Program-made: the position numbers and the translations under genes | Assembly (NCBI RefSeq): GCF_001308265.1 | Contig: NZ_CP012023.1 | Location: forward strand, 2,804,932 to 2,868,931 | Direction: 5' to 3' | DNA: 64,000 bases | Source: Celeribacter marinus | GTDB taxonomy: Bacteria; Pseudomonadota; Alphaproteobacteria; Rhodobacterales; Rhodobacteraceae | In this document: in pieces, positions 41,856-61,055 of the stretch | How positions within the stretch are numbered: position 1 is the first letter of the stretch | How the letters are laid out: each line of letters begins with the position of its first letter | The notes under the pieces: model-generated | Seen by the model: only the letters and a program-made list of their open reading frames with translations | Told to the model about the DNA's origin: nothing | Database searches by the model: none

Positions 41856-42061
41856 TGGCCTGTCCCATTTGCAAACAAGACAGCACCAAAGAATATCGCC
41901 CCTTTTGTAGCAAACGCTGCGCCGACATTGATCTGGGCCGCTGGATGAACGGCTCATATGCCGTCCCGTCCGAGCGAGAATTCGACCCCGAAGAGGTCGC
42001 AAAAGCGCTCGGTGAGGCGAGTGAAGAAAATAATGCCGACAGCTTGGATAAACCCCACTAA
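41855..42061 (+). CDS. yacG: DNA gyrase inhibitor YacG
   Basis: 68-residue zinc protein with Cys3, Cys6, Cys18 and Cys22 (CPIC ... FCSKRC) followed by the IDLGRWMNGSYAVP signature. Known members bind GyrB and block DNA binding. TGATG overlap with the ribonuclease gene. Acidic disordered tail. Confidence 0.92.
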   Translation: MACPICKQDSTKEYRPFCSKRCADIDLGRWMNGSYAVPSEREFDPEEVAKALGEASEENNADSLDKPH

Positions 42062-42140
42062 TTTCTTCACTTTCCCTCTGGACACCCACGCCCCCTACGA
42101 CTAGAACCCCGCTACCCGAACGCAAAAGCGTTCTTCCGGT

Positions 42141-42215
42141 GCCCGGGTAGCTCAGGGGTAGAGCAGTGGATTGAAAATCCTCGTGTCGGTGGTTCGATTC
42201 CGCCCCTGGGCACCA
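42141..42215 (+). tRNA. tRNA-Phe (GAA)
   Basis: Complete cloverleaf: acceptor GCCCGGG/CCTGGGC, anticodon loop TTGAAAA (GAA), T-loop TTCGATT, discriminator A and encoded CCA. Its 3' 46 bases are repeated at 57980-58025, so it is the target of tandem integrative elements. Confidence 0.96.
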
Positions 42216-42413
42216 CTTTTACTAATAAAAACAATGACTTAGCCAATCGCCATGCGCGCTAAAGTTGTGCAATTCAAAAACACACCTTAAACACACTTTT
42301 TGCCGTGTTGCTGACTATTTTGCCTGTGGATTCGCTGTGTTGAACACAGTGTAGGCTGATGCTGTGTTGCGAACACTGTGTTGGCAGAGTTTTGGGCGAA
42401 CATAGTGAGGAAC
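42216..42413. repeat. Left arm sequence shared by both tRNA-Phe elements
   Basis: About 200 bp following the tRNA match 58026-58222 with few differences. It includes the palindromes CTGTGTTGAACACAG (42335-42349) and GTGTTGCGAACAC (42364-42376). No coding frame is evident. The rest up to 42454 shows nothing else. Confidence 0.8.
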
Positions 42414-42454
42414 ACAAGAAACGTCATTGCTGGTTTTCCGCCCAGAGCAGACAT

Positions 42455-42958
42455 TCACGCTAGGCGCGGCGAATGGCGGCTTCGAGCCCAACGCCAACCA
42501 AGATCGGTAGGGAACTTTTCGATCGCAAACATCATCGAATTTTGCTCCCATTTAACTTCGTTATGTTTGAAAGTTGGGTGAGCTGCGTTGTAGACATTAG
42601 CCTGATACGCTGGTCCTGAATATTGCCCATCTAGAGTTGCACGGATCAGTTTTATGACCATTGGATAACTTAACGCCCGAAACATCCACATGCAGCTGTT
42701 TCTATCTCCAAAATTCAAAGACGCACGCGCGCTGTAAAAGAAGCTAAGCCTTAACCCCATGTAGTATGGATAGCCCAAACTACTGGCAAATCCGTGCTCT
42801 GGTTCTTGTGCATGCTGCAAATACACGAGAACAGGATTGCTGGTTATGTTGTCCTCAACAATAACACCCAAGCCGCAAGCATGCCAAATATTGAGAAGTG
42901 AGGTTTCGTACGGGCTTAAGATCAGGCCGCTGTTTTGTGGTTGGCTCATAATATTCAT
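42455..42958 (-). CDS. Unknown 167-residue protein, third gene of AAA operon
   Basis: Not recognised. Start MNIMSQPQNSG at 42958 with AGGAG upstream, overlapping the AAA gene stop (ATGA), so translation is coupled. Rich in aromatic residues (YPYYMGLRLSFFYSARASLNFG). It has no signal peptide. AT-richer than core genes. Likely works with the ATPase. Confidence 0.65.
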   Translation of the reverse strand: MNIMSQPQNSGLILSPYETSLLNIWHACGLGVIVEDNITSNPVLVYLQHAQEPEHGFASSLGYPYYMGLRLSFFYSARASLNFGDRNSCMWMFRALSYPMVIKLIRATLDGQYSGPAYQANVYNAAHPTFKHNEVKWEQNSMMFAIEKFPTDLGWRWARSRHSPRLA

Positions 42959-43596
42959 GATGCTCTCCTGTGGCTTGCGATTACCATCTCTTCGAGGAGA
43001 TCAATGAGATCGCGGGCACTGCCTTGGAAGTTGTGCAGCATCTGCGCGACGTCCGCTTGTGTTGGAGATAAACCTTCGGCTTCTAGGATGGTCTTGGCGC
43101 GATCCACCCAATCCAAATTGGTTGGCGGAGTAAGATCTAGAACTCGAAAGCGTGACAGCATCGCCCCGATGATGCGGCTCTTGTGATTGGTGGTTGCAAC
43201 AAAGCGGACAAGATGGCGCTTGTCGTCCATAAACTCGCGAAACATGGGTTGCACGCTGCGCAAGTCCATCTCGTCAATCTCATTGATAACGATCAGCGCT
43301 TTATCTGCGTTGCCAAACATCTGATGGTTCACTTCAGACATAATCTTGGCTTCAAAGTCTTTGCCAAGACTGGCTGCGTTGAACTCCCACTGCATGTGTT
43401 GGATGTTCAACCTGTCGAAGTAGCTCTTGGCGATCACACGCGCAGCTTCTGTTTTGCCTGCGCCGGGCATACCAGCTAGTAGCACCGGCTTTGAGGGCGG
43501 TTGGGCGCAGTATTGTTTAATTACACCGGCATTAAGTGGGTCTGTAATAACGAGGTCAGAGAACACTTGTGGCAGATGCTTAAGGTCGAATGACAT
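42955..43596 (-). CDS. AAA+ ATPase, clamp-loader (RFC small subunit)-like
   Basis: 213 residues from MSFDLKHLPQ, with GGAGG five bases before the ATG. Walker A GMPGAGKT (42-49). The Walker B region reads LIVINEID (101-108) with Asn where Asp is usual but Glu kept. Sensor-1 ATTNHKS, then LSRFRVLDL with a possible arginine finger, and sensor-2 SARDL (about 193-197). The order and the RFVATTNHKSRIIG-type strand recall RFC/T4 gp44 clamp loaders more than MoxR. It probably remodels a DNA or protein partner encoded in this operon. Confidence 0.75.
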   Translation of the reverse strand: MSFDLKHLPQVFSDLVITDPLNAGVIKQYCAQPPSKPVLLAGMPGAGKTEAARVIAKSYFDRLNIQHMQWEFNAASLGKDFEAKIMSEVNHQMFGNADKALIVINEIDEMDLRSVQPMFREFMDDKRHLVRFVATTNHKSRIIGAMLSRFRVLDLTPPTNLDWVDRAKTILEAEGLSPTQADVAQMLHNFQGSARDLIDLLEEMVIASHRRAS

Positions 43597-43626
43597 GAAA
43601 GCCTCCATTTTTTAGTGTAGATGTCA

Positions 43627-43648
43627 GGGGCAACTCATCAGTTGCCCC
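43627..43648. promoter_or_regulatory. Intercistronic hairpin upstream of the AAA gene
   Basis: Perfect 9-bp inverted repeat GGGGCAACT/AGTTGCCCC with a 4-base loop between the first and second genes of the minus-strand operon. No T-run follows on the minus strand. It could tune expression of the ATPase relative to the upstream gene or protect the mRNA end (inference). Confidence 0.55.
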
Positions 43649-43661
43649 CAGTTGGCGAGCA

Positions 43662-44471
43662 TTAGCCGTAGAACTGTGCATCAGCTTTGCTGGGCGCATT
43701 TGCTGCAGTAACCGCTGCCTTGGAGCCGACCCGTATCATTTTGGAGGCAAACTCACGGACATCACGGGCTCGTTTGTCTGCCAGATCACCTGCATCAAGT
43801 TTGGCCAGGCTTTCTTGGGTGCGTTGATCAAGGTCTTTACCTGATGACACCAAGACAGCATCGATGATGCCTGCTTCATTGCAGCCGTAAACCACAGTGC
43901 CAGTGCCGTCGTCATGACAGCGCACCAAAGCTACCGCATAATCTTCTTCGTAATCCGTGTTGGCTTGAATAAAGGTCGGAAGCTCAAACGTAGACACACC
44001 GACTTGCACTTCTTGCAGGCCTTCAAGAGCCAGCTTGCGGTAGTCTTCTTTAGACATGGTTGTCTTCTTTGTGGCCGTTGGAACCCGGCGTACCTCTTCT
44101 AAACCACCGCATTCTTGCACATAGCTCGTAAAGCTTTGATCAGGTCCCTTCATGTCATGCGCAATTGCAACAACCCGGGCATAGGCTTCTTCACGGCGTC
44201 CCTGCCCCGCAAACACATAGCGGATCACCTTAAGAGCCAAGCTCGTATTTGCTTGGGTCTTAACCTCAAGATCCGTGAGTAAAGCAGCAAAAGCGCGGCG
44301 CTTGCCCACTTCTGCTTTGAGCTCTGCATACATAGCGTACACACCTTCAAGAATTGCATAAAGCTCATCGTTTGATGCCCGCAGTGTGCCTTCTTCCCAA
44401 GTCACACGGGAAGTGTGCATTGCGTCGAGGCGTTTGTGGATATCGGTTTTGATTTGAGATTGAACAGACAT
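43662..44471 (-). CDS. Unknown 269-residue protein, first gene of AAA operon
   Basis: Not recognised. Start MSVQSQIKTDIHKRLDAMH at 44471 after AAAGGAAG. The N-terminal half is helical with possible coiled coil (DELYAILEGVYAMYAELKAE). The C-terminal part is beta-rich (TGTVVYGCNEAGIIDAVLVSS) with an Ala-rich tail. No membrane segment. First gene of a minus-strand operon, divergent from the 256-residue gene across 180 bp. Confidence 0.65.
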   Translation of the reverse strand: MSVQSQIKTDIHKRLDAMHTSRVTWEEGTLRASNDELYAILEGVYAMYAELKAEVGKRRAFAALLTDLEVKTQANTSLALKVIRYVFAGQGRREEAYARVVAIAHDMKGPDQSFTSYVQECGGLEEVRRVPTATKKTTMSKEDYRKLALEGLQEVQVGVSTFELPTFIQANTDYEEDYAVALVRCHDDGTGTVVYGCNEAGIIDAVLVSSGKDLDQRTQESLAKLDAGDLADKRARDVREFASKMIRVGSKAAVTAANAPSKADAQFYG

Positions 44472-44652
44472 GGTTCTTCCTTTCAATTTTAGCTTGCAGC
44501 CACCTGCAAAGCGTTGAGTAAAAGCCCAAGTCCTTACGAACAGCGTTCTAAGGAAGCAGAGGGCCACAGCACTTTAGTGTCATGCTGAGACTCGTTTAAT
44601 CGAAGAAGTGCTCTAGATTTTGACTCCAAACGCGTAAAACGGAGATGGAGTC

Positions 44653-45423
44653 ATGCCCAAGGACTGGGCACATGAAGGCGCAGAGGCACTTAGCTTTGTG
44701 ACTGCTCCGCCCAACAACGCAGAGATTGCGTACACTCGCTTCAAGGGCCAGCGGAACCTGCCCTATAAGGAAGCCGAGCCCTATAAGTCTTCGCTTTATT
44801 ATTGGTGGTGGGCGTTCTTGCGACGCAACAAGCAGTACAAGAATACCTGCAACAAGTTTGGGGCTGGCAAACTTGCTCGCCTTTATCAGGACTTTGGCAA
44901 TATCTTTGATGGTACCTTCTTGGATTGGTGGCGTGATCACCAAAGCCTGTTTGCAGAGCAAAGCTGCGTAGGAGAAGACCCCGACAATCTTGGCCAATTA
45001 ATGTACCAAATTGACCCTTATCGGCCACTGCACCATATACAAGAAGAAGTTAAAGCACTGCACATGCGTGCTCAGGCAATTATGCCAGTTGGCGGCTCAA
45101 CCGTTACATCGACAGCCCAGTATCCAATTTATACTAATGTGTCTGCTCATACCCTACACCGGGTTTTAAAGCTGTGGGACCTCAAGCAAACACATCCAAC
45201 AGACAGCGCTTATAATCTAGGTATCTTGGCGGGTTTGCGTCCAAACTTGATGCCATTGTCTCAGTATGTTGCCACGCGCACATCAAAGGCGCTTGAGATT
45301 GAGCGCCACAACAAACGCGCCCGCATCAGCATATCCAATCAAACAAACCGATATTTGCGCACAGCTGAGCAATATATTGAGAATGTTGGGCACGGAGAGT
45401 TCCCCAAAGCCCTGCGCAGGTAA
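44653..45423 (+). CDS. Unknown 256-residue protein with YYWWWAFLRRN motif
   Basis: Not assigned to a family. The N-terminal third holds a Trp/Tyr-rich block SSLYYWWWAFLRRNKQY, then GKLARLYQDFGNI and FLDWWRDH ... LFAEQ. This pattern feels conserved among proteins of proteobacterial islands, but I cannot name it. The C-terminal part has LWDLKQTHPTDSAYNLG and a basic end. Probably soluble and nucleic-acid associated (inference). Divergent from the AAA operon; GGAGATGGAGTC precedes the ATG. Confidence 0.65.
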   Translation: MPKDWAHEGAEALSFVTAPPNNAEIAYTRFKGQRNLPYKEAEPYKSSLYYWWWAFLRRNKQYKNTCNKFGAGKLARLYQDFGNIFDGTFLDWWRDHQSLFAEQSCVGEDPDNLGQLMYQIDPYRPLHHIQEEVKALHMRAQAIMPVGGSTVTSTAQYPIYTNVSAHTLHRVLKLWDLKQTHPTDSAYNLGILAGLRPNLMPLSQYVATRTSKALEIERHNKRARISISNQTNRYLRTAEQYIENVGHGEFPKALRR

Positions 45424-45454
45424 CTTCCAGCCGTTGATTTTATTGGATAAAAAT

Positions 45455-45576
45455 CCAAACACGCTGTTTGGAAACGCCATGTTTGCTATTTTTGTCAAAC
45501 ACGCTGTTTGCAACAGGAGTGTTTGGGTAATTACAAATAAACGCCGTGTTAACACTGCATGTTAGAACACCGTGTT
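45455..45576. repeat. Cluster of AACAC/GTGTT palindromes
   Basis: Four palindromes between convergent genes: CCAAACACGCTGTTTGG (45455-45471), CAAACACGCTGTTTG (45496-45510), GTGTTAACAC (45546-45555) and AACACCGTGTT (45566-45576). All share AACA/TGTT half-sites, as do palindromes in both att arms (42335-42376 and 58145-58186). They lie between two gene ends, so they are not promoters; origin or partition sites are possible (inference). Confidence 0.75.
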
Positions 45577-45667
45577 TGCATAGACCTGCACTATTTGGTG
45601 GCCTTAAGTGCTGACTTTATACAGGGCAGATGTGCTGTGTTTGTATCAGGATGATCTGTGATGGGGC

Positions 45668-45994
45668 TTAATACTCCTCTGCCAACATGATCGTAAGTAC
45701 ACGACTGGTCACAGTCGGATCGCTGGGATCAGGCGAATGCATCTGCAGGTCTACATCGTAGGTCTCGATCTTCCAGAAGATGGTTATATCGCCGTGATGG
45801 AATGATCCGAAGTCATGCTATCCATAAGGGTCCTTGTCCGGTGTGAAGGCGGTGTAACACTGCACTTGGCCCAGCACTGATGGTACGTCATCTAACGCCT
45901 GCACGCCTTGAGTGATCACCACACGGCACCCTGTGAATGAGCGCCGTGCGTGATCATTAAGTGCTGCTATTTTAGCTGTGGTTGCATCATGCAT
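45668..45994 (-). pseudogene. DUF3768-like protein with in-frame TAG
   Basis: A 108-codon frame starting MHDATTAKIAALNDHARRSF and ending [11 protein letters not shown] has the DUF3768 layout ([38 protein letters not shown]). It is interrupted once, at codon 59 (45818-45820), by TAG exactly where homologues usually have a charged residue. Both sides stay conserved and in one frame. The start overlaps the stop of the preceding DUF gene. Nonsense mutation, readthrough or sequencing error are all possible. Confidence 0.75.
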
Positions 45995-46445
45995 TTGCTG
46001 CCGCCTTAGCAGCTCCTGGCTTTAGGCGTGGTTGCCGCTCAGCTACTTTGGTGATCGCTACGTCCAACTCTCCTGCGGCAGCTGCGTTTAGAAAAGCATC
46101 AAGGACACCAGCTACGTCTTCTAGTGATTTGACTAGTACTGCGTTGTTGGTGCCATCAGCTGCAATCACACGCGCGCCGTATCGGCACTGCACATACCAG
46201 CCCCCGTCTTGCTCAAAGAACCATGGGCGTATTCTGCGGTGTGTTTTGACCATCACCCGTTCTCCCATGTCATTGGTCATCCACTTGTGTCGCTCAACGC
46301 GGTGATCTTCTTTCTTGAGTGCAGCCGCATGCACCAGCTTTTGCTCTTCAAGCCCCGCCACGAGTTTATCGCGCCGTGCTACAATGGGATCGCGCTTGGT
46401 GCTGCGATCAACGGTCTTGAATGTAAGCTTTGCCAGATGTGTCAT
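45987..46445 (-). CDS. DUF6641-like protein
   Basis: 152 residues. Basic N-terminus with DPIVARRDKLVAGLEEQKLVH, then RHKWMTNDMGERVMVKTHRR and RIRPWFFEQDGGWYVQCRYG, resembling DUF6641, a family of islands and plasmids in alphaproteobacteria with unknown role. C-terminal Ala-rich tail. The first gene of a two-gene unit with the DUF3768-like frame. Family name given from memory of the pattern. Confidence 0.65.
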   Translation of the reverse strand: MTHLAKLTFKTVDRSTKRDPIVARRDKLVAGLEEQKLVHAAALKKEDHRVERHKWMTNDMGERVMVKTHRRIRPWFFEQDGGWYVQCRYGARVIAADGTNNAVLVKSLEDVAGVLDAFLNAAAAGELDVAITKVAERQPRLKPGAAKAAANA

Positions 46446-46583
46446 ATCCGCTCCTTGCTGTTTGGTTACAGCTAAAGCGTATGGTCAAAGGAAACATTGG
46501 ACGACCGGAAAGACAGTCAAGATACTGATTATATGTGATAATGTGGATAAATACAGCTGCACTTACCCAACTGGAGGCAGCAT

Positions 46584-46910
46584 ATGAGCATAAGACTACT
46601 AGAGCACTTACGAGACGAATTGATACACACTGGTATTGTCCAGAATACACCAGAATTTTGCCGCAGCTGGCTAGGACGCAGTGAAGGCTACATTCGCGTG
46701 TTGCGCTACAACCGCATAGAACCAAGTGTGGAGACGCTGGCGATCTGTTCTAACAAGCTGGGGCATTATGCGGCGCGACTGAATGGCTCAGAGGTTGAAC
46801 AGCACAAACAGTGGGCCGCTAGGTTAGTCGGCCTAAAGGCCCTCTGCGATCAGGCCATAGCCCGCCAAGCAGAAGCAGTGTGGCGTGAGCCTGAGAGGAT
46901 GGGCGCATGA
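46584..46910 (+). CDS. DUF6626-like small protein
   Basis: 108 residues beginning MSIRLLEHLRDELIHTGIVQ, with FCRSWLGRSEGYIRVLRYNRIEPSVETLAICSNKLG, a helix-turn-helix-like arrangement seen in DUF6626 proteins of alphaproteobacterial islands. Probably DNA-binding. Divergent from the DUF6641-like gene, with about 140 bp of shared promoter region. A likely terminator lies 27 bp downstream. Confidence 0.6.
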   Translation: MSIRLLEHLRDELIHTGIVQNTPEFCRSWLGRSEGYIRVLRYNRIEPSVETLAICSNKLGHYAARLNGSEVEQHKQWAARLVGLKALCDQAIARQAEAVWREPERMGA

Positions 46911-46936
46911 GCTTGTATCTGAAATGGGTTCTGCAG

Positions 46937-46963
46937 CCGCAAAAATCTGTGCTGCGGTTTTTT
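46937..46963 (+). terminator. Possible intrinsic terminator
   Basis: Short stem CCGCA/TGCGG closing a 12-base loop and followed by six T. Weak stem but good T-run, 27 bp after the DUF6626-like gene. Confidence 0.5.
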
Positions 46964-47033
46964 AGCGGGAAGTACTTACAGAAGTTAGGTGGTGATTTTG
47001 CATCACCCCATTTTGCTAAGCAGGGTGCTGCGC

Positions 47034-47390
47034 ATGGATGACCGAGACGAACTGCGCAGACTAATTGATGTGATTGAGAAAGGCTCTGGCACGGGCAGTC
47101 TTGAGCAAGCCGTTGATGACATTAAGACCTTTGCCAATACCGCAAGCTTGCTAGCTAACAAGTTGGACACACGGCTAAAAGGTGGCGACGTCAAAGCAAA
47201 GAAGCAGCCAAAGTCGCGGATGGGTAAGGCTATTGCAGCTGTGCCAAAGCCAAGTGCACCTAAGCCCCCTACGCCAGCCACGCAGCCGTCTGCGTCTGGG
47301 ATGCCTCAAGTAACCAGTACGGCAACGTCACAAGCAGATTACGATAAGCTTAAGCCACAGGGAACACAGGGAACTCTGGGTGGGATGTAG
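47034..47390 (+). CDS. Hypothetical protein with Pro/Ala/Thr-rich tail, 118 residues
   Basis: Not recognised. Start MDDRDELRRLIDVIEKG at 47034. The first 60 residues are helical and acidic, then a Lys-rich patch and a disordered Pro, Ser and Thr tail ending GTLGGM. No membrane segment. The last gene of the unknown module before the non-coding stretch and IS91. Confidence 0.5.
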   Translation: MDDRDELRRLIDVIEKGSGTGSLEQAVDDIKTFANTASLLANKLDTRLKGGDVKAKKQPKSRMGKAIAAVPKPSAPKPPTPATQPSASGMPQVTSTATSQADYDKLKPQGTQGTLGGM

Positions 47391-48005
47391 TGCTGTGGCG
47401 TTTACGGCGCTGTGTAAGCAGGCGTAAGGCGGTGAGTTTGGGAAGGCCGCTACGTGTGGCTGTAAACGTGGGTTAAGGCGCTACGTGGGCTTTTGTGTCA
47501 GACATATGCGGATGTTGGAGTTTATAGGGCTGTGTAGGTTTTGGTTGTGAACAAGCGCGAGAGGCATAGTTAAAATCATACGAGTTCGTCTTCGCTCATA
47601 TGCTCGATAAAGATGCTAGGCCTTAAACCAAGCTGGCATTTGTGCATATTGCAGCCAACGGCTGGTTTGATGAAGATTTTCTGATGCGGGCCAGGGTGCA
47701 ATCTTTCGGCTTGGCTCGACTGTGGCCCGCGTTGGAAAATCTCTCAGGGAGGAAGCCGCGGGGGCTTGGCGGTGTCTATGGGGAAAGAGCGCTGTCTATC
47801 GGGCTTGTGACTGCTGCGGATACGTTTTTGGTCAGATTGAAGACGGCGGTTCGTACGTTTTGCCCGCTCGCTTGCCTAAGATTTGAGCTGGGTCGCTGCC
47901 GGTTTGCACCTTTAACGTGATTTGCTGGATCGCTGCGCACAAGTGATTTTGGCCGGTGTTGCAGAAACAACCGGATCGCATTGGGCGGGATAAACGGGCA
48001 ATCAG
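47391..48005. other. Non-coding stretch before IS91 transposase
   Basis: About 600 bp. Frames on both strands look like shadows. The right part (from about 47700) has higher GC than the left and probably belongs to the transposon's 3' flank. The exact transposon end could not be placed. Confidence 0.4.
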
Positions 48006-49199
48006 TCATGCGGCCTGTTTCCTTGGTGGAGCGCGGGATCGGGGAACCTGGCCGCGCTTGAACGTTTCGATGATCAGCATTGTGCCGCCGCAACAGGGGC
48101 ACGGTTCCCGCAATGTAAATGGTGTGGGATCATCCTCGGATGGTGGTTCTTGCTCTGGCGGGCTCGCCCCAATCAGGGCTCGGACCTTTGCAATGTTGGT
48201 TTTACGTTGCGCGGACGCCAGCAGGCCATAGTGCCGGATCCGGTGGAACCCGTCGGGGAGAACATGCATCAGGAAACGGCGGATGAACTCGTCCGTTGTC
48301 AGGCGCATCACCTTTTGCCGGTCACCACTCTTGATGCGATAGTCCTTCCATCGGAACGCGACGGTGTTTGCATCGGCGCTGAAGAGGCGCTGGTTCGAGA
48401 TCGCGACACGGTGCGTGTAACGACTGAGGTAGGCTAGAACTGCCTCGGGTCCGCCGAACGGTGGTTTGGCATAGACCACCCATTCGATTTTACGGAACGG
48501 GGCCAACCAGTTTGCAAATGCACCGGTCTCAGCCAGCCCTTTTAGGTCACTATAAAACGCCAGATCACCCGAGCGATGCAACGCCATCAGTCCTTCGATG
48601 AACAGGCGGCGGAACAGCCGTGACAGCACCCGCACATGCAGGAAGAACCCCGGCTTGCACGCCACCCATTGGTTGCCGTCGCGCGACAAGCCACCGCCGG
48701 GGACGATCATGTGGATGTGTGGGTGATGGGTGAGCGCAGACCCCCATGTGTGCAACACGCTGGTCATGCCAACGCGAGCACCCATGCGCTTGGGATCAGC
48801 GGCGATGGTCGTCACGGTCTCGGCGGACGCCCGGAACAGCAGGCCGTAAATGGCGCGCTTGTTCCAGAGGGCGATCCTGGCAATCTCGGCTGGTAGCGTG
48901 AAGACGACATGGAAATACTCGACGGGCAGCAAGTCTTCGGCCCGTGCCGCCATCCAGTCGCGCGCAGCGGGTCCCTGACACTTTGGACAGTGCCGGTTTT
49001 TGCAACTGTTGTATGCGATGTGCTGATGGCTGCATTTGGTGCAAGCCGCCACATGCCCGCCGAGCGCCTCTGTTCGGCAGGCTTCTATCGCTGACATCAC
49101 CTTAAGCTGGCTCAGGCTGATATGCCCGGCATTGGCCCGCCGCCACGCGGGACCATGTTTGCGGAATATGTCAGCAACCTCCAGTCTGGGGCGGGGCAC
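48006..49199 (-). CDS. IS91-family transposase
   Basis: 397 residues from a GTG start. N-terminal zinc ribbon (CTKCSHQHIAYNSCKNRHCPKC spread over about 53-75), then the HUH endonuclease core with HHPHIHMIVPGGG supplying the metal His residues, and a YLSRYTHRVAISNQRL block with the catalytic tyrosine region. Intact and full length. It lies ten bases after the recombinase gene. Confidence 0.93.
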   Translation of the reverse strand: MPRPRLEVADIFRKHGPAWRRANAGHISLSQLKVMSAIEACRTEALGGHVAACTKCSHQHIAYNSCKNRHCPKCQGPAARDWMAARAEDLLPVEYFHVVFTLPAEIARIALWNKRAIYGLLFRASAETVTTIAADPKRMGARVGMTSVLHTWGSALTHHPHIHMIVPGGGLSRDGNQWVACKPGFFLHVRVLSRLFRRLFIEGLMALHRSGDLAFYSDLKGLAETGAFANWLAPFRKIEWVVYAKPPFGGPEAVLAYLSRYTHRVAISNQRLFSADANTVAFRWKDYRIKSGDRQKVMRLTTDEFIRRFLMHVLPDGFHRIRHYGLLASAQRKTNIAKVRALIGASPPEQEPPSEDDPTPFTLREPCPCCGGTMLIIETFKRGQVPRSRAPPRKQAA

Positions 49200-49209
49200 T
49201 CCCCGCCCG

Positions 49210-50097
49210 TCACCGCGGTCGCGTCTTGCGTGTCTGTAGGTTCAACTGCTTGAGGGCCTCGAACGGGCTGGTCGTATCCCGGATCATCTTGGTGGCGACC
49301 TTAGTGTACTGCGCGGTGGTTGTCAGTTTGGCGTGACCAAGTAGCACTTGGATAACCCGTACATCCGTGCCCGCTTCCAGCAGATGGGTGGCAAAGCTGT
49401 GCCGCAGGGTGTGCAGCGTTGCGGGCCTGTTGATCCCGGCCATGCGTTTGGCCGATGTAAAGGCCCGGTTGAGTTGACGTGGCGAGATCGGATTGATCTT
49501 GGGTTTACCCGGGAACATCCACCCTTCAGGCCGTGCCTCGCACCAATAGTCACGCAACAGATCGAGCAATCCCGGCGACAGCATTACCTTACGATCCTTC
49601 CGCCCCTTGCCCTGCACGACGTGGATCAACATCCGGTCACTGTCGATGTCGCCGGTCGTCAGATTGCAAACCTCAGAGGCGCGCAGACCCGCACCATAAG
49701 AGATACTGAGCGCCGCGCGATACTTGAGCCCGGGACCAGGTGCTACGGCCAGAAGTTCTGAGACTTCCTCAACGCTGAGCACAGCGGGCAGCTTGCGCGG
49801 CTCGGTGCGGAATTGCATGTACTTCTTCATCTCATCACGCCCGCAGGTCATCGAGAAAAAGAAACGCAGAGCAGTGATCCGCGCGTTGTAAACCGAGGGC
49901 GTGACCTCGGTATCCGTCATATGAAGTTGATACGCGCGCAGCTCCTCACGCGTAGCCGTATCCGGTGAATGCCCCAGAAACGCAGCAAAATCCTTGACTG
50001 CCCGGATATGAGATCGCTGGGATTGGTGCCCCAGACCCCGAATGCGCATGTCTTCGATCATCCGCTCCCGAAGCGGTGTTGTTCTCTCGCTGACCAT
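49210..50097 (-). CDS. Tyrosine recombinase of the IS91 unit
   Basis: 295-residue XerC/D-like recombinase. N-terminal SAM-like core-binding domain (HIRAVKDFAAFLGHSP). Catalytic Arg in GAGLRASEVCNL, Lys in GKGRKDRKV, HTLRHSFATHLLEAG and LGHAKLTTTAQYTKV with Tyr. AGGAGG site before the ATG. In this IS91 subgroup such a gene regularly precedes the transposase; its part in transposition is unclear. It is not expected to act at tRNA-Phe. Confidence 0.9.
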   Translation of the reverse strand: MVSERTTPLRERMIEDMRIRGLGHQSQRSHIRAVKDFAAFLGHSPDTATREELRAYQLHMTDTEVTPSVYNARITALRFFFSMTCGRDEMKKYMQFRTEPRKLPAVLSVEEVSELLAVAPGPGLKYRAALSISYGAGLRASEVCNLTTGDIDSDRMLIHVVQGKGRKDRKVMLSPGLLDLLRDYWCEARPEGWMFPGKPKINPISPRQLNRAFTSAKRMAGINRPATLHTLRHSFATHLLEAGTDVRVIQVLLGHAKLTTTAQYTKVATKMIRDTTSPFEALKQLNLQTRKTRPR

Positions 50098-50114
50098 GAA
50101 ATCCTCCTGTCTGT

Positions 50115-50134
50115 CGATTGAGAAACCTCAATCG
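50115..50134. repeat. Terminal hairpin next to the IS91 recombinase gene
   Basis: Perfect 8-bp stem CGATTGAG/CTCAATCG with a 4-base loop, 18 bp upstream of the recombinase start. IS91 ends carry such hairpins, so it probably marks the terminus-side end. Confidence 0.6.
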
Positions 50135-50274
50135 TCAAACAGATCAGCCAGATCGCAAAATCCGCCAACATGTGGGATGCTTCAATACGCTTGCCACAAG
50201 CGCCAGTGCCGCGCGAGCGGCTTCGTCCCTGAGCCCAAAATTCCAACTTCTACTGGGTGCAGCGAAGGTCTGCT

Positions 50275-50793
50275 TCAGATCCTGCGCTTCGCCAGCTCTC
50301 GGTAGAGCGCTGGTGGCGAAACGCCGATCCTTTCTGCCACCATGATCCATTCACCCTTGGGCGGTTTGCCATGAAGGTCCAGCCAAGCATCAAGCCGATC
50401 CGCCACACGCCTGAAACGCAGGATTTCAATCCGCGCCCGCTGCGCCTGCACTTCCTTTGCATGGGTTTCAATTAAGCTCAGGGCGGCCTCCGGCATGTTG
50501 CGGATAGCGCTCAAAAACTTAGCACGAGGCATGCTGGCAACTTCAGCGTCAAAGCGCGCAACAGCGTCACAGTGATAGATTTTCGCAAACAAGGAAGCCT
50601 CGGCCAAAGCCATGCCTGCCGTGGCAACGTGCAGTGTCAGCGGCACACCATCTGTCAGCGGGCGCTCCAATGCGACCGCGCCGGATCGCACCAGATACAT
50701 AGACTCCACTTGCTCCGCTTGACGGAACACCGCCGCATTTTTCGCTATCCTACGGACGGGTGCGCCATCGAAAATATCTATCCAGGTCGACAT
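50275..50793 (-). CDS. Crp/Fnr-family regulator, short
   Basis: 172 residues from MSTWIDIFDGAPVRRI. Cyclic-nucleotide-binding-like barrel (FRQAEQVESMYLVRSGAVALERP) followed by a helix-turn-helix cut short (WIMVAERIGVSPPALYRELAKRRI). There are no Fnr-type N-terminal cysteines. A start at 50844 is possible. It is divergent from the copper cluster and may be its second regulator; the ligand is unknown. Confidence 0.78.
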   Translation of the reverse strand: MSTWIDIFDGAPVRRIAKNAAVFRQAEQVESMYLVRSGAVALERPLTDGVPLTLHVATAGMALAEASLFAKIYHCDAVARFDAEVASMPRAKFLSAIRNMPEAALSLIETHAKEVQAQRARIEILRFRRVADRLDAWLDLHGKPPKGEWIMVAERIGVSPPALYRELAKRRI

Positions 50794-50860
50794 GATAGAG
50801 ATCATATGGCGCTTGATACTTGTCTGATAGTCTTTTGATGACAATTTGAGAGGCTAAAAC

Positions 50861-51448
50861 ATGCAAGCAAAAATTATCCTAACTGTAATTGCATTTACGG
50901 GCGGCACGGCGCTCGCGTTCGCGCAAACCAACCATGCCGGACACGATAATGGTATGGATCATTCAGCACACGGCCAAGATCAGATAACGAATGCCGATGT
51001 ATTGTCAGAACCTGGGCAAGGCGCTTTCGCAGCTTTGTCCGAAGTCGTACGCGTCCTTGAAGCTGATCCTAGTACGAACTGGGCCAAAGTCGATCTGACT
51101 GGCTTGCGAGCGCATCTGATCGATATGGACCGGTTGGTCTCGGATGCGGTGGTCTCGCAAACTGACCTCCCGAACGGGATAAGCGCCGCCGCGACTGGCG
51201 ATGCAGAGACAATCGAGACGCTTCGGCGGATGGTGCCTGCCCATGCGGCGCAGCTCGCGCGTGATGATCGTTGGGCTGTACAAGCCACCCAAACCGACGA
51301 GGGCATTGAGCTGCGGGTGACGAGCGATGATCCCGCTGTTGTCGCCCGGATCAAAGGCCTAGGTTTCTTTGGATTGATGGCCAGTCAGGATCATCATCGT
51401 GAGCATCACTTGATGATGGCACTCGGGGAAGATGCCCACGCGCATTGA
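50861..51448 (+). CDS. Secreted His/Met-rich protein of the copper cluster
   Basis: 195 residues with a signal peptide (MQAKIILTVIAFTGGTALAFA). The mature protein starts with a His-, Met- and Asp-rich stretch (HAGHDNGMDHSAHGQDQ) and ends with DHHREHHLMMALGEDAHAH, both suited to metal binding. The middle part is a helical domain found beside copper genes, without a named function. Probably a periplasmic copper buffer (inference). First gene of the cluster. Confidence 0.75.
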   Translation: MQAKIILTVIAFTGGTALAFAQTNHAGHDNGMDHSAHGQDQITNADVLSEPGQGAFAALSEVVRVLEADPSTNWAKVDLTGLRAHLIDMDRLVSDAVVSQTDLPNGISAAATGDAETIETLRRMVPAHAAQLARDDRWAVQATQTDEGIELRVTSDDPAVVARIKGLGFFGLMASQDHHREHHLMMALGEDAHAH

Positions 51449-51492
51449 TATGCTGCGACAGCAGGTAACAGACGTGTGACTTGCAAAACCAT

Positions 51493-51513
51493 ACATACCC
51501 CATATAGGTATGT
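51493..51513. promoter_or_regulatory. CsoR-type operator 1
   Basis: Palindrome with arms ACATACC and GGTATGT around CCATATA, directly before the small membrane protein gene at 51517. It shares the TACCCCATAT core with the site at 56286-56306 next to the CsoR-type gene. Assigned as its binding site by similarity and position. Confidence 0.65.
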
Positions 51514-51516
51514 TTC

Positions 51517-51831
51517 ATGTTTATGGCTCGCTTCATCATGGTCGTCATCTTGACGCTATCCGCATCGCTCTCCGGAGCGATGGATGCGGGACATATGCCG
51601 TCTACCGATCATAACCACGCTGCGGCTGAAATCATGGCGGATGAACAACCCGCATGTTGTCAGGACAGCAGTGAACGCACGCAGACCTGTCATGCCGTGC
51701 CAGCTCTGCTTCCGGCATCGGAACCGACCAGCACTCCGCCATTTGCGGGTAAAGGTGTAGTCTTCGCGTCTGGCATACTGCTGACCGGTATTCAGCCATC
51801 CCGTCCTCTCGATCCACCCCGCGCGGTGTGA
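51517..51831 (+). CDS. Small exported/membrane protein, Cys-His rich
   Basis: 104 residues. Hydrophobic N-terminus (MARFIMVVILTLSASLSGAM, from the second ATG at 51523), then HMPSTDHNHAAAE and CCQDSSERTQTC with several possible metal ligands, and a short hydrophobic segment at about 75-90. Resembles small proteins placed first in copper operons. It stands right behind the CsoR-type palindrome, so it is probably metal induced. Confidence 0.55.
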   Translation: MFMARFIMVVILTLSASLSGAMDAGHMPSTDHNHAAAEIMADEQPACCQDSSERTQTCHAVPALLPASEPTSTPPFAGKGVVFASGILLTGIQPSRPLDPPRAV

Positions 51832-51939
51832 TGCCTGCTGTGCCTCTTTGTGGTGCAGCAAAGATTAGTCATCACACCAAAACGGGCTTTGCCCGCAGCC
51901 CTCATTAATTGGGCACGCATCTTTCGAGAGGAAAACCTT

Positions 51940-52434
51940 ATGAAATCAATCAAGACACTTCTGGCCTTCACACCCGCCGCTGCACTTGCCCTTGGACTGG
52001 CATCCTTTGGATGGGCGAGTATGGCCCATGCCGACAGCCATTCACATATGGCTGACTACGGCACCATGCACGTAACCAAAAGTCCTACATGCGGATGCTG
52101 CGGCGCTTGGGTGGCACTGGCCCGCGAGGAAGGCTACGACATTGAAGTGACCGACACTGCGGACGTCACAAGCGTGAAATTGGACGCGAACATTCCTGGC
52201 AATATGTGGGCCTGTCATACCGCCATGATCGACGGCTACGTCGTCGAAGGCCATGTGCCGTTTGCAGCCCTTGCAAAACTGCTGGAAGAGCGCCCGAACG
52301 TCACAGGCATCGCTGTTCCGGGAATGCCCGGCGGCTCGCCCGGCATGGGAAATGATCCAACTGCACGCTATGACGTGATCTCCTTCGGCGGCGATGCGAA
52401 TGAAGGCGACGTCTTCTATCAGGCCGGTTTGTGA
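51940..52434 (+). CDS. DUF411 metal-binding protein
   Basis: 164 residues with a signal peptide ending near SMAHA. DUF411 core: TMHVTKSPTCGCCGAWVALA with CGCC, then GNMWACHTAMIDGYVVEGHVP, both carrying Cys and His ligands. DUF411 proteins are copper-linked periplasmic proteins of unclear mechanism. Start ATG 51940 after GAGAGG. It overlaps the cytochrome c gene by four bases. Confidence 0.88.
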   Translation: MKSIKTLLAFTPAAALALGLASFGWASMAHADSHSHMADYGTMHVTKSPTCGCCGAWVALAREEGYDIEVTDTADVTSVKLDANIPGNMWACHTAMIDGYVVEGHVPFAALAKLLEERPNVTGIAVPGMPGGSPGMGNDPTARYDVISFGGDANEGDVFYQAGL

Positions 52435-52895
52435 AACGGCTTGTATTCATAGCTGGTGGCGGAGCGGCTCTGATCGGGGCCGCTCTCTATGCCTACACCA
52501 CGGTCTCGGCTGAAACTGATCGGGTTGTCCTGAAAGATACCGATCCAGTAATCGTAGCACTCGGGGCAAGTGTCTATGAGGCGAATTGTGCCTCGTGCCA
52601 CGGGGCTAATCTGGAAGGCCAAGCCAATTGGCGCTCGCCTGATGAAGATGGACGTCTCCCCGCTCCGCCCCATGATGAAACCGGACACACATGGCACCAT
52701 GACGGGGACACGTTGTTTCGGCTCACCAAATACGGGACGGGTGCCCTTATCGGCGATCCCGACTACGCTTCGAACATGCCAATCTACGAAGGCGTTCTGA
52801 GCGATGAAGAGATTATCGCCGTTCTCAGCTACATCAAATCGACCTGGCCGGACGACGTCCGCGCCCGTCATGACGAAATGGAAAACAGACAATGA
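52431..52895 (+). CDS. c-type cytochrome
   Basis: 154 residues from a GTG start overlapping the DUF411 stop. Signal anchor (LVFIAGGGAALIGAALYAY), a single heme site CASCH (about residues 49-53) and a likely axial Met in SNMPIYEG. It could take electrons from or hand them to the multicopper oxidase, but that is inferred from neighbourhood only. Confidence 0.85.
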   Translation: MKRLVFIAGGGAALIGAALYAYTTVSAETDRVVLKDTDPVIVALGASVYEANCASCHGANLEGQANWRSPDEDGRLPAPPHDETGHTWHHDGDTLFRLTKYGTGALIGDPDYASNMPIYEGVLSDEEIIAVLSYIKSTWPDDVRARHDEMENRQ

Positions 52896-53236
52896 AACAA
52901 AGCATTTTTGCAATCCTTGCGCTGATCGCAACCGCGACCGGTGCCTGGGCGCACTCCAAAGCCGAAGAAACAACTCCGGCAAATGAGGCGACAGTAGCAT
53001 CGGTTGAAGCCATCGAAATGCGCTTTGATGATCCGATGCGCGTGATCGCGATTACGCTGACCGGACCGGACGGCGAAGTGGATATTGAGCGTGAAACCGG
53101 CATGGACGCCGTGACGGAGTTCCGTGCACTGCCACCTGCTGATCTGCCCGACGGGGCCTATACGGTTGATTGGCGTGGTCTATCTGCAGACGGTCACCCC
53201 ATGCAGGGCACCTTCGGCTTCAAAGTAGCCGATTGA
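52892..53236 (+). CDS. copC: Copper resistance protein CopC
   Basis: Periplasmic copper-binding beta-barrel protein. 114 residues; signal peptide cut after GAWA gives a mature N-terminus HSKAEE whose His1 is the usual Cu(II) ligand. The second conserved region DGHPMQGTFGF is at the C-terminus. Overlaps both neighbours (cytochrome before, copD after). Confidence 0.92.
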   Translation: MKQSIFAILALIATATGAWAHSKAEETTPANEATVASVEAIEMRFDDPMRVIAITLTGPDGEVDIERETGMDAVTEFRALPPADLPDGAYTVDWRGLSADGHPMQGTFGFKVAD

Positions 53237-54120
53237 TCCGCGTGGAAGGTCTGGCACCAATCGACGCATGGGCCATTGCGGCCATCATTGCGAAGGCAGC
53301 GGGCTACGGCGCGGCGCTTCTTGCAATGGGCGGGCCACTATTCATTTTGGCCTTTCCAAACGCATCCTCCGATGTGCAGAAACTAGCTCGGAAAATCGCT
53401 GTGATCGCCGCTTTGATCGGACTTGCAGTGCTGGCATTGCGGTTTGGCATCCGGGCCGCCCGTATCTCCGGGATGGGTTTGCCGGGTGCACTCGATCCTA
53501 TGATGCTTGGCTTTGTCTGGGACAGTCCGCTTGGGACAGCCGCAATCTGGCGCGTTTTGGGTGAACTTCTTGTCCTTGCCATGCTGATAAGGGGTGTCGT
53601 TGGCCTCGGGATGGGGTTGGTTGGGGCGCTCTTGATTGCGGTGTCTTACACGTTCGTCGGCCATTCTCTTGGTGACCTTCGCTGGCTGCTCGCGTCGTTA
53701 TTGACACTGCACCTTCTGGCGGCGGCGTTCTGGATTGGCGCACTGGCCCCTCTCGGTCGCGCGGTCGGCCAGCCAGACGGCGCATTGCTGCTTCATCGCT
53801 TTGGAAACGTCGCCAGCGTGACGGTCGCACTGCTTGTCGTCGTTGGGTTGGTCTTTGCGTGGCTCATGACCGGATCACTCTCCGCGCTGCTTTCAACCGC
53901 TTACGGCTGGACGCTTCTCGCCAAGCTCGGCGTGGTAACAGGGTTGATGGCCCTTGCCGGCCTCAACAAATGGCGGCTCGTTCCGGCGCTTGCATCTGGC
54001 GATTCCACTGCTGCGTCCCACTTACGCCGCTCAATTCAAATCGAAACCGTGGCCGTTCTGCTCATCTTGCTGGCAACCGCAACGCTGACCTCGATCACCA
54101 CGCCTCCGGTCAACATGTGA
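53233..54120 (+). CDS. copD: Copper resistance membrane protein CopD
   Basis: 295 residues with about eight membrane segments and CopD-family blocks (FVGHSLGDLRWLLASLLTLHLLAAAFWIGALAPL, given here only as position about 135-170, with conserved His). The start appears to be TTG at 53233, overlapping the copC stop; GTG at 53242 is the alternative. CopC and CopD together import or transfer copper across the inner membrane. Confidence 0.88.
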   Translation: MIRVEGLAPIDAWAIAAIIAKAAGYGAALLAMGGPLFILAFPNASSDVQKLARKIAVIAALIGLAVLALRFGIRAARISGMGLPGALDPMMLGFVWDSPLGTAAIWRVLGELLVLAMLIRGVVGLGMGLVGALLIAVSYTFVGHSLGDLRWLLASLLTLHLLAAAFWIGALAPLGRAVGQPDGALLLHRFGNVASVTVALLVVVGLVFAWLMTGSLSALLSTAYGWTLLAKLGVVTGLMALAGLNKWRLVPALASGDSTAASHLRRSIQIETVAVLLILLATATLTSITTPPVNM

Positions 54121-54133
54121 AAAGGAAACTCTC

Positions 54134-55561: not shown

Positions 55562-55962
55562 TGTTCTGGATGCCTCTCATATCAGGGGCTATACTCGGCG
55601 GCGCGACTATCGCACTCATGGAAATCGGTGGCGTGATGCGTCAGCGGGGAACATGGGCGACAACAATGGTCGCTATCGCATCATTCTACGTAGTGTTCGC
55701 CATCCAGACCGGCGATACGCTGGAAATCATCGTTCATAGCGGTCTCGCAGCCGGGTTCGTCATTCTCGCGATTGTTGGCGCACGCGCGTCATCCTGGATA
55801 CTCGCTGCTGCTTTGCTCGGACATGGATTATTCGACGTTGCAGTCGGATCGGTTCTCTCGAACCCTGCCCCGAACTGGTGGGGGCCGTTCTGTCTGGGGA
55901 TCGACGTGATACTGGCGCTTGCTTTGGCCGTGATGCTCTGGCGCGGACAAACCCTCGACTGA
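55561..55962 (+). CDS. Small membrane protein (DUF6010-like)
   Basis: 133 residues with four hydrophobic segments (about 5-25, 32-50, 55-75, 105-128). Start shares bases with the oxidase stop. The order of segments and GHGLFDVAVGS block resemble DUF6010, assigned tentatively. Last gene of the forward copper operon; converges with the CsoR-type gene. Confidence 0.65.
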   Translation: MFWMPLISGAILGGATIALMEIGGVMRQRGTWATTMVAIASFYVVFAIQTGDTLEIIVHSGLAAGFVILAIVGARASSWILAAALLGHGLFDVAVGSVLSNPAPNWWGPFCLGIDVILALALAVMLWRGQTLD

Positions 55963-55966
55963 ACAG

Positions 55967-56278
55967 CTACTTTGACGCTTTTTGCAAAAGCCCGATCAAC
56001 TCATCAAACTTCGCACGTTGCTCCTCGGGGTCGCCGCTCTGGATCGCCGTCTCGACACAATGCTCGGCATGGTTTTCAAGGATTAGCTTTTCGACACCCA
56101 GGATCGCTGACCGGATCGCCGCTGTTTGCGCTAGAATATCCATACAGTAGCGGTCGGCCTCGACCATGCCCGACACGCCGCGCACCTGTCCTTCCAGCCT
56201 TGAGAGCCGGTCCAGTGTCTTTTCTTTGTTAGCTTTCACGCTGGCATTCCACTTTTGTTTGGAACCATCGGCTGACAT
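55967..56278 (-). CDS. CsoR/FrmR-family metal-sensing repressor
   Basis: 103 residues from MSADGSKQKW. Family core TLDRLSRLEGQVRGVSGMVE; Cu(I) ligand set Cys45 (DRYCMDIL), His70 and Cys74 (ENHAEHC), i.e. the C-H-C pattern of copper sensors. All-helical dimer or tetramer that releases DNA on metal binding. Divergent from the DUF305 gene with a palindrome between them, and a matching palindrome lies at 51493-51513. Confidence 0.9.
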   Translation of the reverse strand: MSADGSKQKWNASVKANKEKTLDRLSRLEGQVRGVSGMVEADRYCMDILAQTAAIRSAILGVEKLILENHAEHCVETAIQSGDPEEQRAKFDELIGLLQKASK

Positions 56279-56285
56279 TCTGGTT

Positions 56286-56306
56286 ATATACCCCATATGG
56301 GTATAT
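56286..56306. promoter_or_regulatory. CsoR-type operator 2
   Basis: Palindrome with 8-bp arms ATATACCC and GGGTATAT around CATAT, lying between the divergent CsoR-type and DUF305 genes. It would allow autoregulation and control of the right-hand genes. Confidence 0.72.
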
Positions 56307-56320
56307 TGGAGAGACAGACA

Positions 56321-57674: not shown

Positions 57675-57979
57675 AAGGAAGCAACATACCGTGACTTCGG
57701 CGCAAGCAGACGTTGGTGGTGCGCGACCTAATGGCAGCTTAGTACCGCATAGCAGTTATATGAACGCGCAACATTGAGAATCCGCTTAATTAGCCAAAAC
57801 CAGCGCTTGTGCTTCAATCGTTGTCGAGAGAAGCTTCAATCGAGGTATGGGGCTATCATAGTGTTCAACACGGCGTTTCCGCCCTGCCCTTACAATGACA
57901 TCAAAAACACACTTATACGCACACCAAAAATATATTCGCTTAAGCCATTGATTATAAATGTATAATTTATACCGCCTCC
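57675..57979. other. Right end of the first tRNA-Phe element
   Basis: About 300 bp. It begins with a good ribosome site and a 28-codon GTG frame ending at 57777 that looks like a gene remnant. After that the DNA is AT-rich without coding character up to the att copy. Confidence 0.4.
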
Positions 57980-58025
57980 ATTGAAAATCCTCGTGTCGGT
58001 GGTTCGATTCCGCCCCTGGGCACCA
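57980..58025. repeat. att copy: 3' end of tRNA-Phe
   Basis: 46 bp identical to 42170-42215, from the anticodon stem to CCA. The 5' half of the tRNA is absent, so it is not a second tRNA gene. Junction between the two tandem elements. Confidence 0.92.
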
Positions 58026-58222
58026 TTTTTACCAACAAAAACAATGACTTAGCCGAGCGCAATGCGCGCTTAAGTTGTGTAATTCAAAAACACACCTTAA
58101 ACACACTTTTTGCCGTGTTGCTGACTATTTTTACTCTGGATTCGCTGTGTTGAACACAGTGTAGGCTGATGCTGTGTTGCGAACACTGTGTTGGCAGAGT
58201 TTTGGGCGAACATGGTTCGGGA
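58026..58222. repeat. Left arm of the second tRNA-Phe element
   Basis: Near copy of 42216-42413, including CTGTGTTGAACACAG (58145-58159) and GTGTTGCGAACAC (58174-58186). Similarity ends around 58222. The following DNA to 58396 has no gene that I can support. Confidence 0.8.
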
Positions 58223-58675: not shown

Positions 58676-58699
58676 AGTACCGCGCCTGCCATCGACTGC

Positions 58700-59813: not shown

Positions 59814-61055
59814 ATGCGGCAGCTGCGTGATGATACACATCTGATACTGGACGGCGAGGTGCGGGTGTATCGGCGTGAGCGCAGCAAGCGCTGGCAGGCA
59901 GCCTTTGTAATTGATGGGCACACCATCCGCATCAGCACGGGCAAGCGTGACTTAGCTGAGGCCAAGGAATATGCCCGCGACACGTTTTTGGAATACAAGT
60001 TCCGCCACAAAAACGATCTGCCTGTTGTGACCAAGAAGTTCTCTGATGTTGCTAAGCTGGCCATTGCCGACATGCGCAAGCAATTGGATGCGAGTTTAGG
60101 GCGTAAAGTGTTTGCTGATTACATCGTGTGTGTTGAGCGCTACCTCATCCCCTTCTTCGGTGCACAGTATGTGACCACCATTGATTATGAGAAGGTGCAA
60201 CAGTTCTACGAGTGGCGGCGTGCTAAGATGGGGCGTGAGCCTAAGGCCTCAACGCTGAATACCCATAACTCAGCCATGAACCGTGTGTTTGAAGAAGCGG
60301 TCGCGCGGGGCTTTATCGCGCATAAGAATGTGCCACTGCTGGTAAACCGCGGCGAGAAGAGCGAACGACGTCCAGACTTTACCCGCGAAGAATACGCCAC
60401 GCTCATCCGCAAGCTGCCCAGCTGGATCGATGCAGGCAAGGCAGGCAAACCCACAGACATGCGCCACCTTATGCGGGACTATGTGTTGATAATGGCCAAT
60501 ACAGGCATGCGGCACGGCACAGAGGCGCTGAACCTACGCTGGAAGCATGTGACCCTGTTCGAGGAAAAGGATCTGCAGTATCTAGAGATGAGCGTCTCAG
60601 GCAAGACTGGTCGCAGGGACATCATCTGCCGCAGTGGAACCATCAATTACCTAAAACGCATTCACGAGCGCAGTGACGACATACGGCACGTCCCTTTTGA
60701 AGACTTGCTCAAGCAGCCTGTTGATCTGCCTGTGTTCAGATTGCCAGATGGCACTGTCTCAAAGAACATCCACCAGACGTTCCGCAAGTTCCTCACAGAC
60801 ACGGGACTGATCACCTGCCCACGCACGGGCCAGAACCGCACACTCTACAGCCTGCGTCACACATACGCGACCTTTGCGCTGCTCAACGATGGTATGGATA
60901 TCCACGCGCTGGCTGTGCAGATGGGCACATCGATTGGCATGATTGAGCGGCATTACAGCCATCTCACGCCAAGGCTCAAGAAGGATATGCTCACAGGCAA
61001 GCGGTATGAGTTGTCGCGGGATGAGTTTGAGGACCAGCATGCCATTAGCGAGTGA
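59814..61055 (+). CDS. Tyrosine integrase of the tRNA-Phe element
   Basis: 413 residues. N-terminal arm-binding region (DGEVRVYRRERSKRWQAAFV), core-binding domain, and catalytic domain with Arg in NTGMRHGTEALNLRW, SLRHTYATFALL (His-x-x-Arg), GTSIGMIERHYSHL with the Tyr nucleophile. Start ATG 59814 after GAGGAG. Its length and place about 1.8 kb from the att site make it the likely enzyme for insertion at tRNA-Phe. Confidence 0.9.
   Translation: MRQLRDDTHLILDGEVRVYRRERSKRWQAAFVIDGHTIRISTGKRDLAEAKEYARDTFLEYKFRHKNDLPVVTKKFSDVAKLAIADMRKQLDASLGRKVFADYIVCVERYLIPFFGAQYVTTIDYEKVQQFYEWRRAKMGREPKASTLNTHNSAMNRVFEEAVARGFIAHKNVPLLVNRGEKSERRPDFTREEYATLIRKLPSWIDAGKAGKPTDMRHLMRDYVLIMANTGMRHGTEALNLRWKHVTLFEEKDLQYLEMSVSGKTGRRDIICRSGTINYLKRIHERSDDIRHVPFEDLLKQPVDLPVFRLPDGTVSKNIHQTFRKFLTDTGLITCPRTGQNRTLYSLRHTYATFALLNDGMDIHALAVQMGTSIGMIERHYSHLTPRLKKDMLTGKRYELSRDEFEDQHAISE

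Follow-up and report, generated by a model that had tools for sequence, protein, structure and literature searches.

A Palindromic Site Shared by the att Arms and an Inner Array of Tandem tRNA-Phe Islands in Celeribacter marinus, with DUF6626 as Its Candidate Binding Protein

Introduction

Apl from phage 186 and Cox from the P2-like phages are small helix-turn-helix proteins that serve both as excision factor and as transcription regulator and have sites at att and in an inner control region (PMC7498355). The sites of known excision factors are direct repeats with a spacing of one helix turn; those of Apl and Cox are 10–11 bp apart and lie between face-to-face promoters (PMC7498355). In the Alphaproteobacteria, RdfS of ICEMlSymR7A, an ICE of Mesorhizobium located at a tRNA gene, binds attP as well as the promoter region of its own gene, and it coordinates excision with gene expression (PMC11963761). 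Integrative mobilizable elements of the SGI1 type combine int, an excision factor, and a replication module, and are characterized by an IncN2-type RepA, oriV, and the plasmid-encoded AcaCD (PMC10954446).

The islands considered here, found in C. marinus and other Rhodobacterales, resemble the Apl and Cox systems in that one kind of site is found at att and again in an inner control region apart from it. They differ in that the sites are 11-bp palindromes, arranged as 12-bp pairs in the att arms and at distances of 15 and 40–42 bp in the inner array, and in that the array of the first element is not at a recognizable promoter. RdfS is a winged helix-turn-helix protein that forms filaments and has no consensus motif, whereas the islands have a sharp palindromic consensus. 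Because the island sites are palindromes rather than helix-turn direct repeats, the proposed likeness to Xis, Cox, Apl, and RdfS is one of working in the manner of a recombination directionality factor, not of membership. With SGI1 the islands share integration at a tRNA gene or gene end, int, a candidate excision factor, and a replication module, but IncN2-type RepA, oriV, and AcaCD are not recognizable in them. The tandem accretion of IMEs and CIMEs at a tRNA gene also has its parallel, an integrase-less element with att sites lying beside a second element (cores at 42, 58, 82, and 87.6 kb); the difference is that conjugation or mobilization genes were not identified in the islands. Judging from comparative sequence analysis, the palindromes are most probably the operators of a regulator not described before, in a Rhodobacterales island family that is itself undescribed. 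This is of relevance to how islands in which no genes for conjugation or of phages are recognizable exit chromosomes and enter them again.

Tandem Elements at tRNA-Phe

The window, by which is meant the whole stretch of 64,000 nucleotides that was analyzed, corresponds to positions 2,804,932–2,868,931 of the single 3.10-Mb contig of C. marinus. Of a tandem array at tRNA-Phe it covers one element and half of the next. The att cores were found at 42171 and 57981 and, beyond the window, at window-equivalent positions 82023 and 87626. There are thus three tandem elements: element 1 (42.2–58.0 kb), element 2 (58.0–82.0 kb), and a short third one extending to 87.6 kb. A tyrosine integrase and direct repeats of the tRNA 3′ end as attL and attR identify them as tRNA-targeted integrative elements, and in an Rfam scan of 41900–60000 tRNA was the sole family matched. 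The features that define the elements are:

42141..42215, + strand, tRNA-Phe(GAA), the integration target (ARAGORN, Rfam RF00005); its 3′ 46 bp (42170–42215) are the att core
57980..58025, + strand, att core between elements 1 and 2, a direct repeat of the tRNA-Phe 3′ end
59814..61055, + strand, tyrosine integrase of element 2, without a copy in element 1 (Pfam PF00589, PHROG 1)

Elements 1 and 2 have a common backbone (approximately 72–74% DNA identity) with genes for an AAA clamp-loader-like ATPase, p303 (301/303 aa), p256 (259 aa in element 2), DUF3768, DUF6641, DUF6626, and p120 (120–133 aa). Element 2 additionally has the integrase, a protein with HUH motifs, and a 92-residue protein. Element 1, from which the genes for the integrase and the HUH protein have been lost, has kept both att sites beside the integrase-bearing element 2. 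The AAA protein matches PHROG 168 (4e-24), and p303 has no known relatives; their genes (42955–43608 and 43662–44567, both on the − strand) are found paired in nearly every element. Searches of the elements identified neither conjugation or mobilization genes nor genes for hijacking a T4SS. Comparable tandem arrays are present at tRNA-Met in G045 and at tRNA-Cys in G289 (G and L numbers are our handles for genomes and loci, respectively).

A second tyrosine recombinase, r188 (62981–63547, − strand; 188 aa, catalytic domain only, PF00589 2e-29), is conserved at 66–91% across most loci, in nearly all elements, and better than the integrase. It is possibly a multimer resolvase.

The Palindrome and the Inner Array

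The palindrome is an 11-bp dyad, AACAC-N-GTGTT (AACACNGTGTT), frequently extended to CAAACACNGTGTTTG. The initial annotation had reported four palindromes with a common half-site between two convergent genes. All four are where it had placed them, and a fifth, weaker site is present at 45473. The genes to either side are indeed convergent in element 1, the right-hand one being a DUF3768 gene broken by an internal stop. The array, as located in the sequence, and its surroundings comprise:

44653..45423, + strand, p256/p259 gene, whose 3′ end adjoins the array; all-helical protein without known relatives
45424..45455, no strand, AT-rich block directly left of the array (62–80% AT in seven loci, mean of the loci approximately 50%)
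45458..45468, no strand, array site 1, AACACGCTGTT, one mismatch
45473..45483, no strand, secondary array site 1b, AACGCCATGTT, two mismatches, 15 bp beyond site 1
45498..45508, no strand, array site 2, AACACGCTGTT, one mismatch, 40 bp beyond site 1
45540..45550, no strand, array site 3, AACGCCGTGTT, one mismatch, 42 bp beyond site 2
45566..45576, no strand, array site 4, AACACCGTGTT, exact, 26 bp beyond site 3
45668..45994, − strand, DUF3768 gene interrupted by a single internal stop and convergent with that of p256; an intact relative matches Pfam PF12599 (5e-33)
45987..46445, − strand, DUF6641-like gene, part of the cassette between the array and DUF6626

The genome-wide count by pattern searches, which had been proposed as a check of enrichment, gave 12 exact matches in which the arms are 1 bp apart. 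Eight of these lie within the 40-kb block of tandem elements, i.e., in 1.3% of the chromosome (binomial p = 4e-13). When the arms are spaced by other centre lengths there are nine copies in the genome and none of them is in this block. In the array itself, four sites with at most one mismatch occur in 177 bp versus 0.037 expected, the maximum in 2,000 Markov shuffles being two. The clustering of the palindromes is real, conserved, and not due to chance. No sigma-70-like promoter was found in 45300–46700.

Sites in the att Arms

Two palindromes had also been noted in each att arm. Both pairs were recovered (42343/42372 and 58153/58182), and an extra pair was found at 57855/57867, inward of the right att. 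Since the 58-kb repeat is the shared boundary of two tandem elements and not just a right end, its palindrome pair is that of the left end of element 2. Distances are from the 36-bp core query:

42278..42306, + strand, ACACAC direct repeats approximately 11 bp apart, between core and dyads; by their sequence probable arm-type sites of the integrase
42343..42353, no strand, palindrome AACACAGTGTA, one mismatch, +136 bp
42372..42382, no strand, palindrome AACACTGTGTT, exact, +165 bp
57855..57877, no strand, inner-side pair ATCATAGTGTT-C-AACACGGCGTT, starts at 57855 and 57867, 12 bp apart, −126/−114 bp
58153..58163, no strand, palindrome AACACAGTGTA of element 2, identical to the 42343 site
58182..58192, no strand, palindrome AACACTGTGTT of element 2, identical to the 42372 site

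The geometry is fixed. At tRNA-Phe the sites on one side are at −126/−114 in the window and at −127/−115 in L035, L065, and L067, and those on the other side are at +122 to +137 and +161 to +165 in five elements; the tRNA-Phe att sites are 12-bp-spaced pairs around GTGTTNAACAC. Elsewhere, the att-arm sites are at +121 (tRNA-Met) and at +94/+106 or +107 (tRNA-Cys). In tRNA-Phe, tRNA-Met, and tRNA-Cys elements alike, the sites examined by sequence lie at a fixed distance outside the ACACA repeats. This agrees with the earlier suggestion that the palindromes have to do with the control of recombination.

The combination of att core, ACACA repeats, and outer AACACNGTGTT pairs is a signature that located island ends blind in other genomes. 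For example, a stray exact site at position 732511 of G045 proved to have a 30-bp copy of the tRNA-Met 3′ end beside it, together with a new integrase. Another stray site, at 498226 in G289, adjoins an intact tRNA-Cys gene.

Conservation and Position of the Array

Had the cluster been missing from related elements, this would have spoken against a specific site. Related islands in the Rhodobacterales do carry it. In element 2 there is a matching cluster in the same place (window-equivalent 67001, 67041, 67083, and 67109). The cluster follows relatives of p256 in two elements of G045 (tRNA-Met and tRNA-Cys), in Nereida ignava and Paradonghicola (now Marivivens) geojensis, and likewise in Ascidiaceihabitans and strain HTCC2083. 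Beside the same gene in L012, L018, and L021–L024 the phasing of 15/25 and 40–42 bp is retained while the words drift. An AT-rich 40-bp block is found left of the array in all seven aligned loci, and the conserved block to its right was not recovered downstream of DUF3768 in other places, except for the 3′ end of that gene itself.

The cluster had been described as not lying in a promoter. This holds for element 1, but in most relatives it is in the 5′ region of DUF6626: array sites are 41–516 bp upstream of this gene in L029, L065, L068, L079, L081, and L083, and the array is in the same interval in L035, L066, L067, and L076. In element 1, as in element 2 and the relatives close to both, the array and DUF6626 are separated by a DUF3768-DUF6641(-HUH) cassette, which is why the array there appears to lie between convergent genes. 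The array is probably an old upstream region of this gene. It is 1–2 kb away from it in elements 1 and 2 and still well formed, which suggests a role beyond that of one promoter.

In two related genomes (L033:8940–9050 and the 3′ flank of L045) the array word has drifted to AACACNGTAAAC / GTTTACNGTGTT, the putative recognition helix of DUF6626 being nearly unchanged.

DUF6626 as Candidate Binding Protein

46584..46910, + strand, DUF6626 protein of 108 aa, helix-turn-helix-like, candidate binder of the palindromes (Pfam PF20331, structural model, co-occurrence)

The protein is 108–112 aa long and matches PF20331 with a score of 134.8 bits versus a Pfam gathering cut-off of 27.3, the copy in element 1 scoring 130.6 bits; the copy in element 2 is off-window at 69194–69532. 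In the structural model (mean pLDDT 86) there are a helix pair, 26–33 and 38–47, and two long C-terminal helices, and the pair could be a helix-turn-helix. Fold searches with the model gave no significant match and only weak ones to antitoxins of the HigA/GraA type, and VIA-align returned only helical-bundle matches below Z 8, which have little meaning. Searches of PDB, the Pfam RDF families, and NCBIfam likewise gave no significant match for DUF6626, and no relation to Cox or Apl was detectable. The DUF6626 and p256 profiles hit nothing in viral contigs, nor did p256 in phage records, and neither DUF6626 nor DUF3768 is mentioned in the literature searched.

When six site-bearing elements were compared all against all, DUF6626 was the sole gene with a true homolog in every one. 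The other small overlapping frames listed are shadows or neighbors of DUF6626, and what matches r188 in element 1 (28%) is the recombinase linked to IS91. Dyads are present in L029, whose integrase is 38% and whose DUF6626 is 43% identical to that of element 2, and in L068, whose integrase is 38–39% identical. L095 and L096 (integrase 71%, DUF6626 35–36%) have no att dyads and have kept the ACACA repeats, and the same is true of L085–L088 (integrase 52–54% identical to that of L029, DUF6626 25–27% or weakly detectable). In all, att-arm dyads were found in about eleven elements with a DUF6626 at least 43% identical versus none of six with a more distant DUF6626; because the elements share ancestry, these counts are not independent. 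The sites thus track DUF6626 rather than the integrase. Some loci speak against this. The att site of the G438 element (L062/L063, DUF6626 61%) is weak, with two mismatches, and L033, L062, L034, and L075 (DUF6626 61–70% identical) lack array sites with one mismatch or less; imperfect sites of the AACACNGTAAAC type are present in L033 and L062.

Recognition by a protein of the element had been proposed, with the 92-residue regulator, the 256-residue protein, and the DUF6626-like protein as possible binders. Very probably one element-encoded protein recognizes both the inner cluster and the att arms. Among the three named, the DUF6626-like protein survives.

Other candidates were rejected from their distribution, although, since tandem elements could act in trans, the absence of a gene from one array element does not strictly exclude its product. 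The 92-residue regulator is absent from the site-bearing L022, L027, and L029, and the complete site-bearing L068 (453.8–467.4 kb of G289) lacks the 256-residue protein (p256/p259) as well as AAA and p303. The HUH protein, DUF3768, and DUF6641 are absent from the complete site-bearing L029, and p120 is absent from the site-bearing L066 (G486). The integrase is absent from element 1, and its identity is dissociated from the dyads in both directions, while r188 is about as similar in L029 (69%), which has dyads, as in L095/L096 (66%), which have none. Foldseek found no match of p256 in PDB or BFVD, and PDB profile searches with alignments of p256, DUF6626, the HUH-like protein, and p303 found nothing.

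Proposed Function and Alternatives

From the computed sites, their enrichment, fixed geometry, conservation, and co-occurrence with DUF6626, we infer the identity of the binder and every functional step that follows. On these comparisons we somewhat favor the view that a single dimeric protein encoded by the element, most likely DUF6626, binds the palindromes at the att arms and in the inner array. Its dimers would bind the outer dyads, which flank the crossover core on both sides at approximately 115–165 bp and lie immediately outside the ACACA direct repeats, the probable anchors of the integrase arms. Bound there, DUF6626 may bend or bridge the arms and so influence the choice between integration and excision, as Xis, Cox, Apl, and RdfS do. 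It would also bind the phased inner array (sites at intervals of 40–42 bp, each followed after 15 bp by a weaker one), which lies in noncoding DNA ancestrally upstream of its own gene, and this binding may set its own level or couple excision to replication, for which the elements carry genes. A bolder version, to which we give rather little credence, is that DUF6626 is a new kind of master DNA-binding protein, one helix-turn-helix protein that would assemble both the intasome at att and the array as a replication or partition center, thereby switching excision and copying. In either case a testable function is offered for a curated family of unknown function.

The strongest rival reading is that the inner array, with DUF6626 or p256 bound to it, serves the excised circle as an iteron-like origin or for partition, and that the copies at att couple replication to excision. 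It is a possibility that we take seriously and yet regard as doubtful. The array is phased and lies beside an AT-rich block (62–80% AT) in all seven aligned loci, genes of the replication type are aboard (the AAA clamp-loader-like protein and often the HUH-motif protein), the array is retained where it is separated from DUF6626, and one locus has a DnaA box, TTATCCACA. However, this box is found in only one of the seven loci, and no constant, recognizable initiator accompanies every copy, p256 having no match to an initiator-like fold; these two points speak against a classical iteron origin. Moreover, the array persists in the complete L068 without p259, AAA, and p303 and in L029 without HUH, and no plasmid was found with a close relative of p256 or with any DUF6626.

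Less can be said for the remaining alternatives. A role of the palindromes as arm-type or accessory sites for the integrase would fit their position at a fixed distance on both sides of the att core and the resemblance of the half-site AACAC to the ACACAC repeats, but it is improbable: dyads occur with integrases that are 38% identical and are missing with those that are 66–71% identical, ACACA repeats being present in all, and no att core lies anywhere near the inner array. At least as hard to sustain is an accessory site for multimer resolution by r188. The conservation of r188 above that of the integrase and the frequency of tandem multimers make it conceivable, yet the 1-bp centre spacing is unfit for the core site of a tyrosine recombinase, r188 is 69% identical in the dyad-bearing L029 versus 66% in the dyad-free L095/L096, and the att arms would be left unexplained. 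It is hardly conceivable that the palindromes arose by chance or are hairpin terminators where convergent genes end. For one of them a weak terminator-like stem was scored on the minus strand, but the stems are A+T-rich with three G-C pairs, the same word stands at the att arms, and centre and spacing are conserved across genera; chance as such is already refuted by the clustering in the genome (p = 4e-13) and by the att-arm geometry.

Cargo and Cassette Genes

Apart from the backbone, the islands bring metal-handling and surface-sugar genes to marine bacteria. In element 1 an IS91-type transposase (Y2_Tnp) with its own tyrosine recombinase (48006–50097, − strand) adjoins cargo of the copper/multicopper-oxidase type. 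The cargo of element 2 (window-equivalent 70386–79925, L010) is a cluster for the biosynthesis of surface sugars of the nonulosonic-acid type. The HUH-like protein (window-equivalent 68416–69057, L010:3348–3989, − strand) has 213 aa, the motifs FGT, NFHIHF, and SYVTHEYW, and no Pfam match, and it travels in a cassette with DUF6641 and DUF3768. A conserved TGATAAATA element is found 30–50 bp before the start codons of the HUH-like protein and of DUF6626 in L010 and its relatives and is perhaps an element-specific promoter box.
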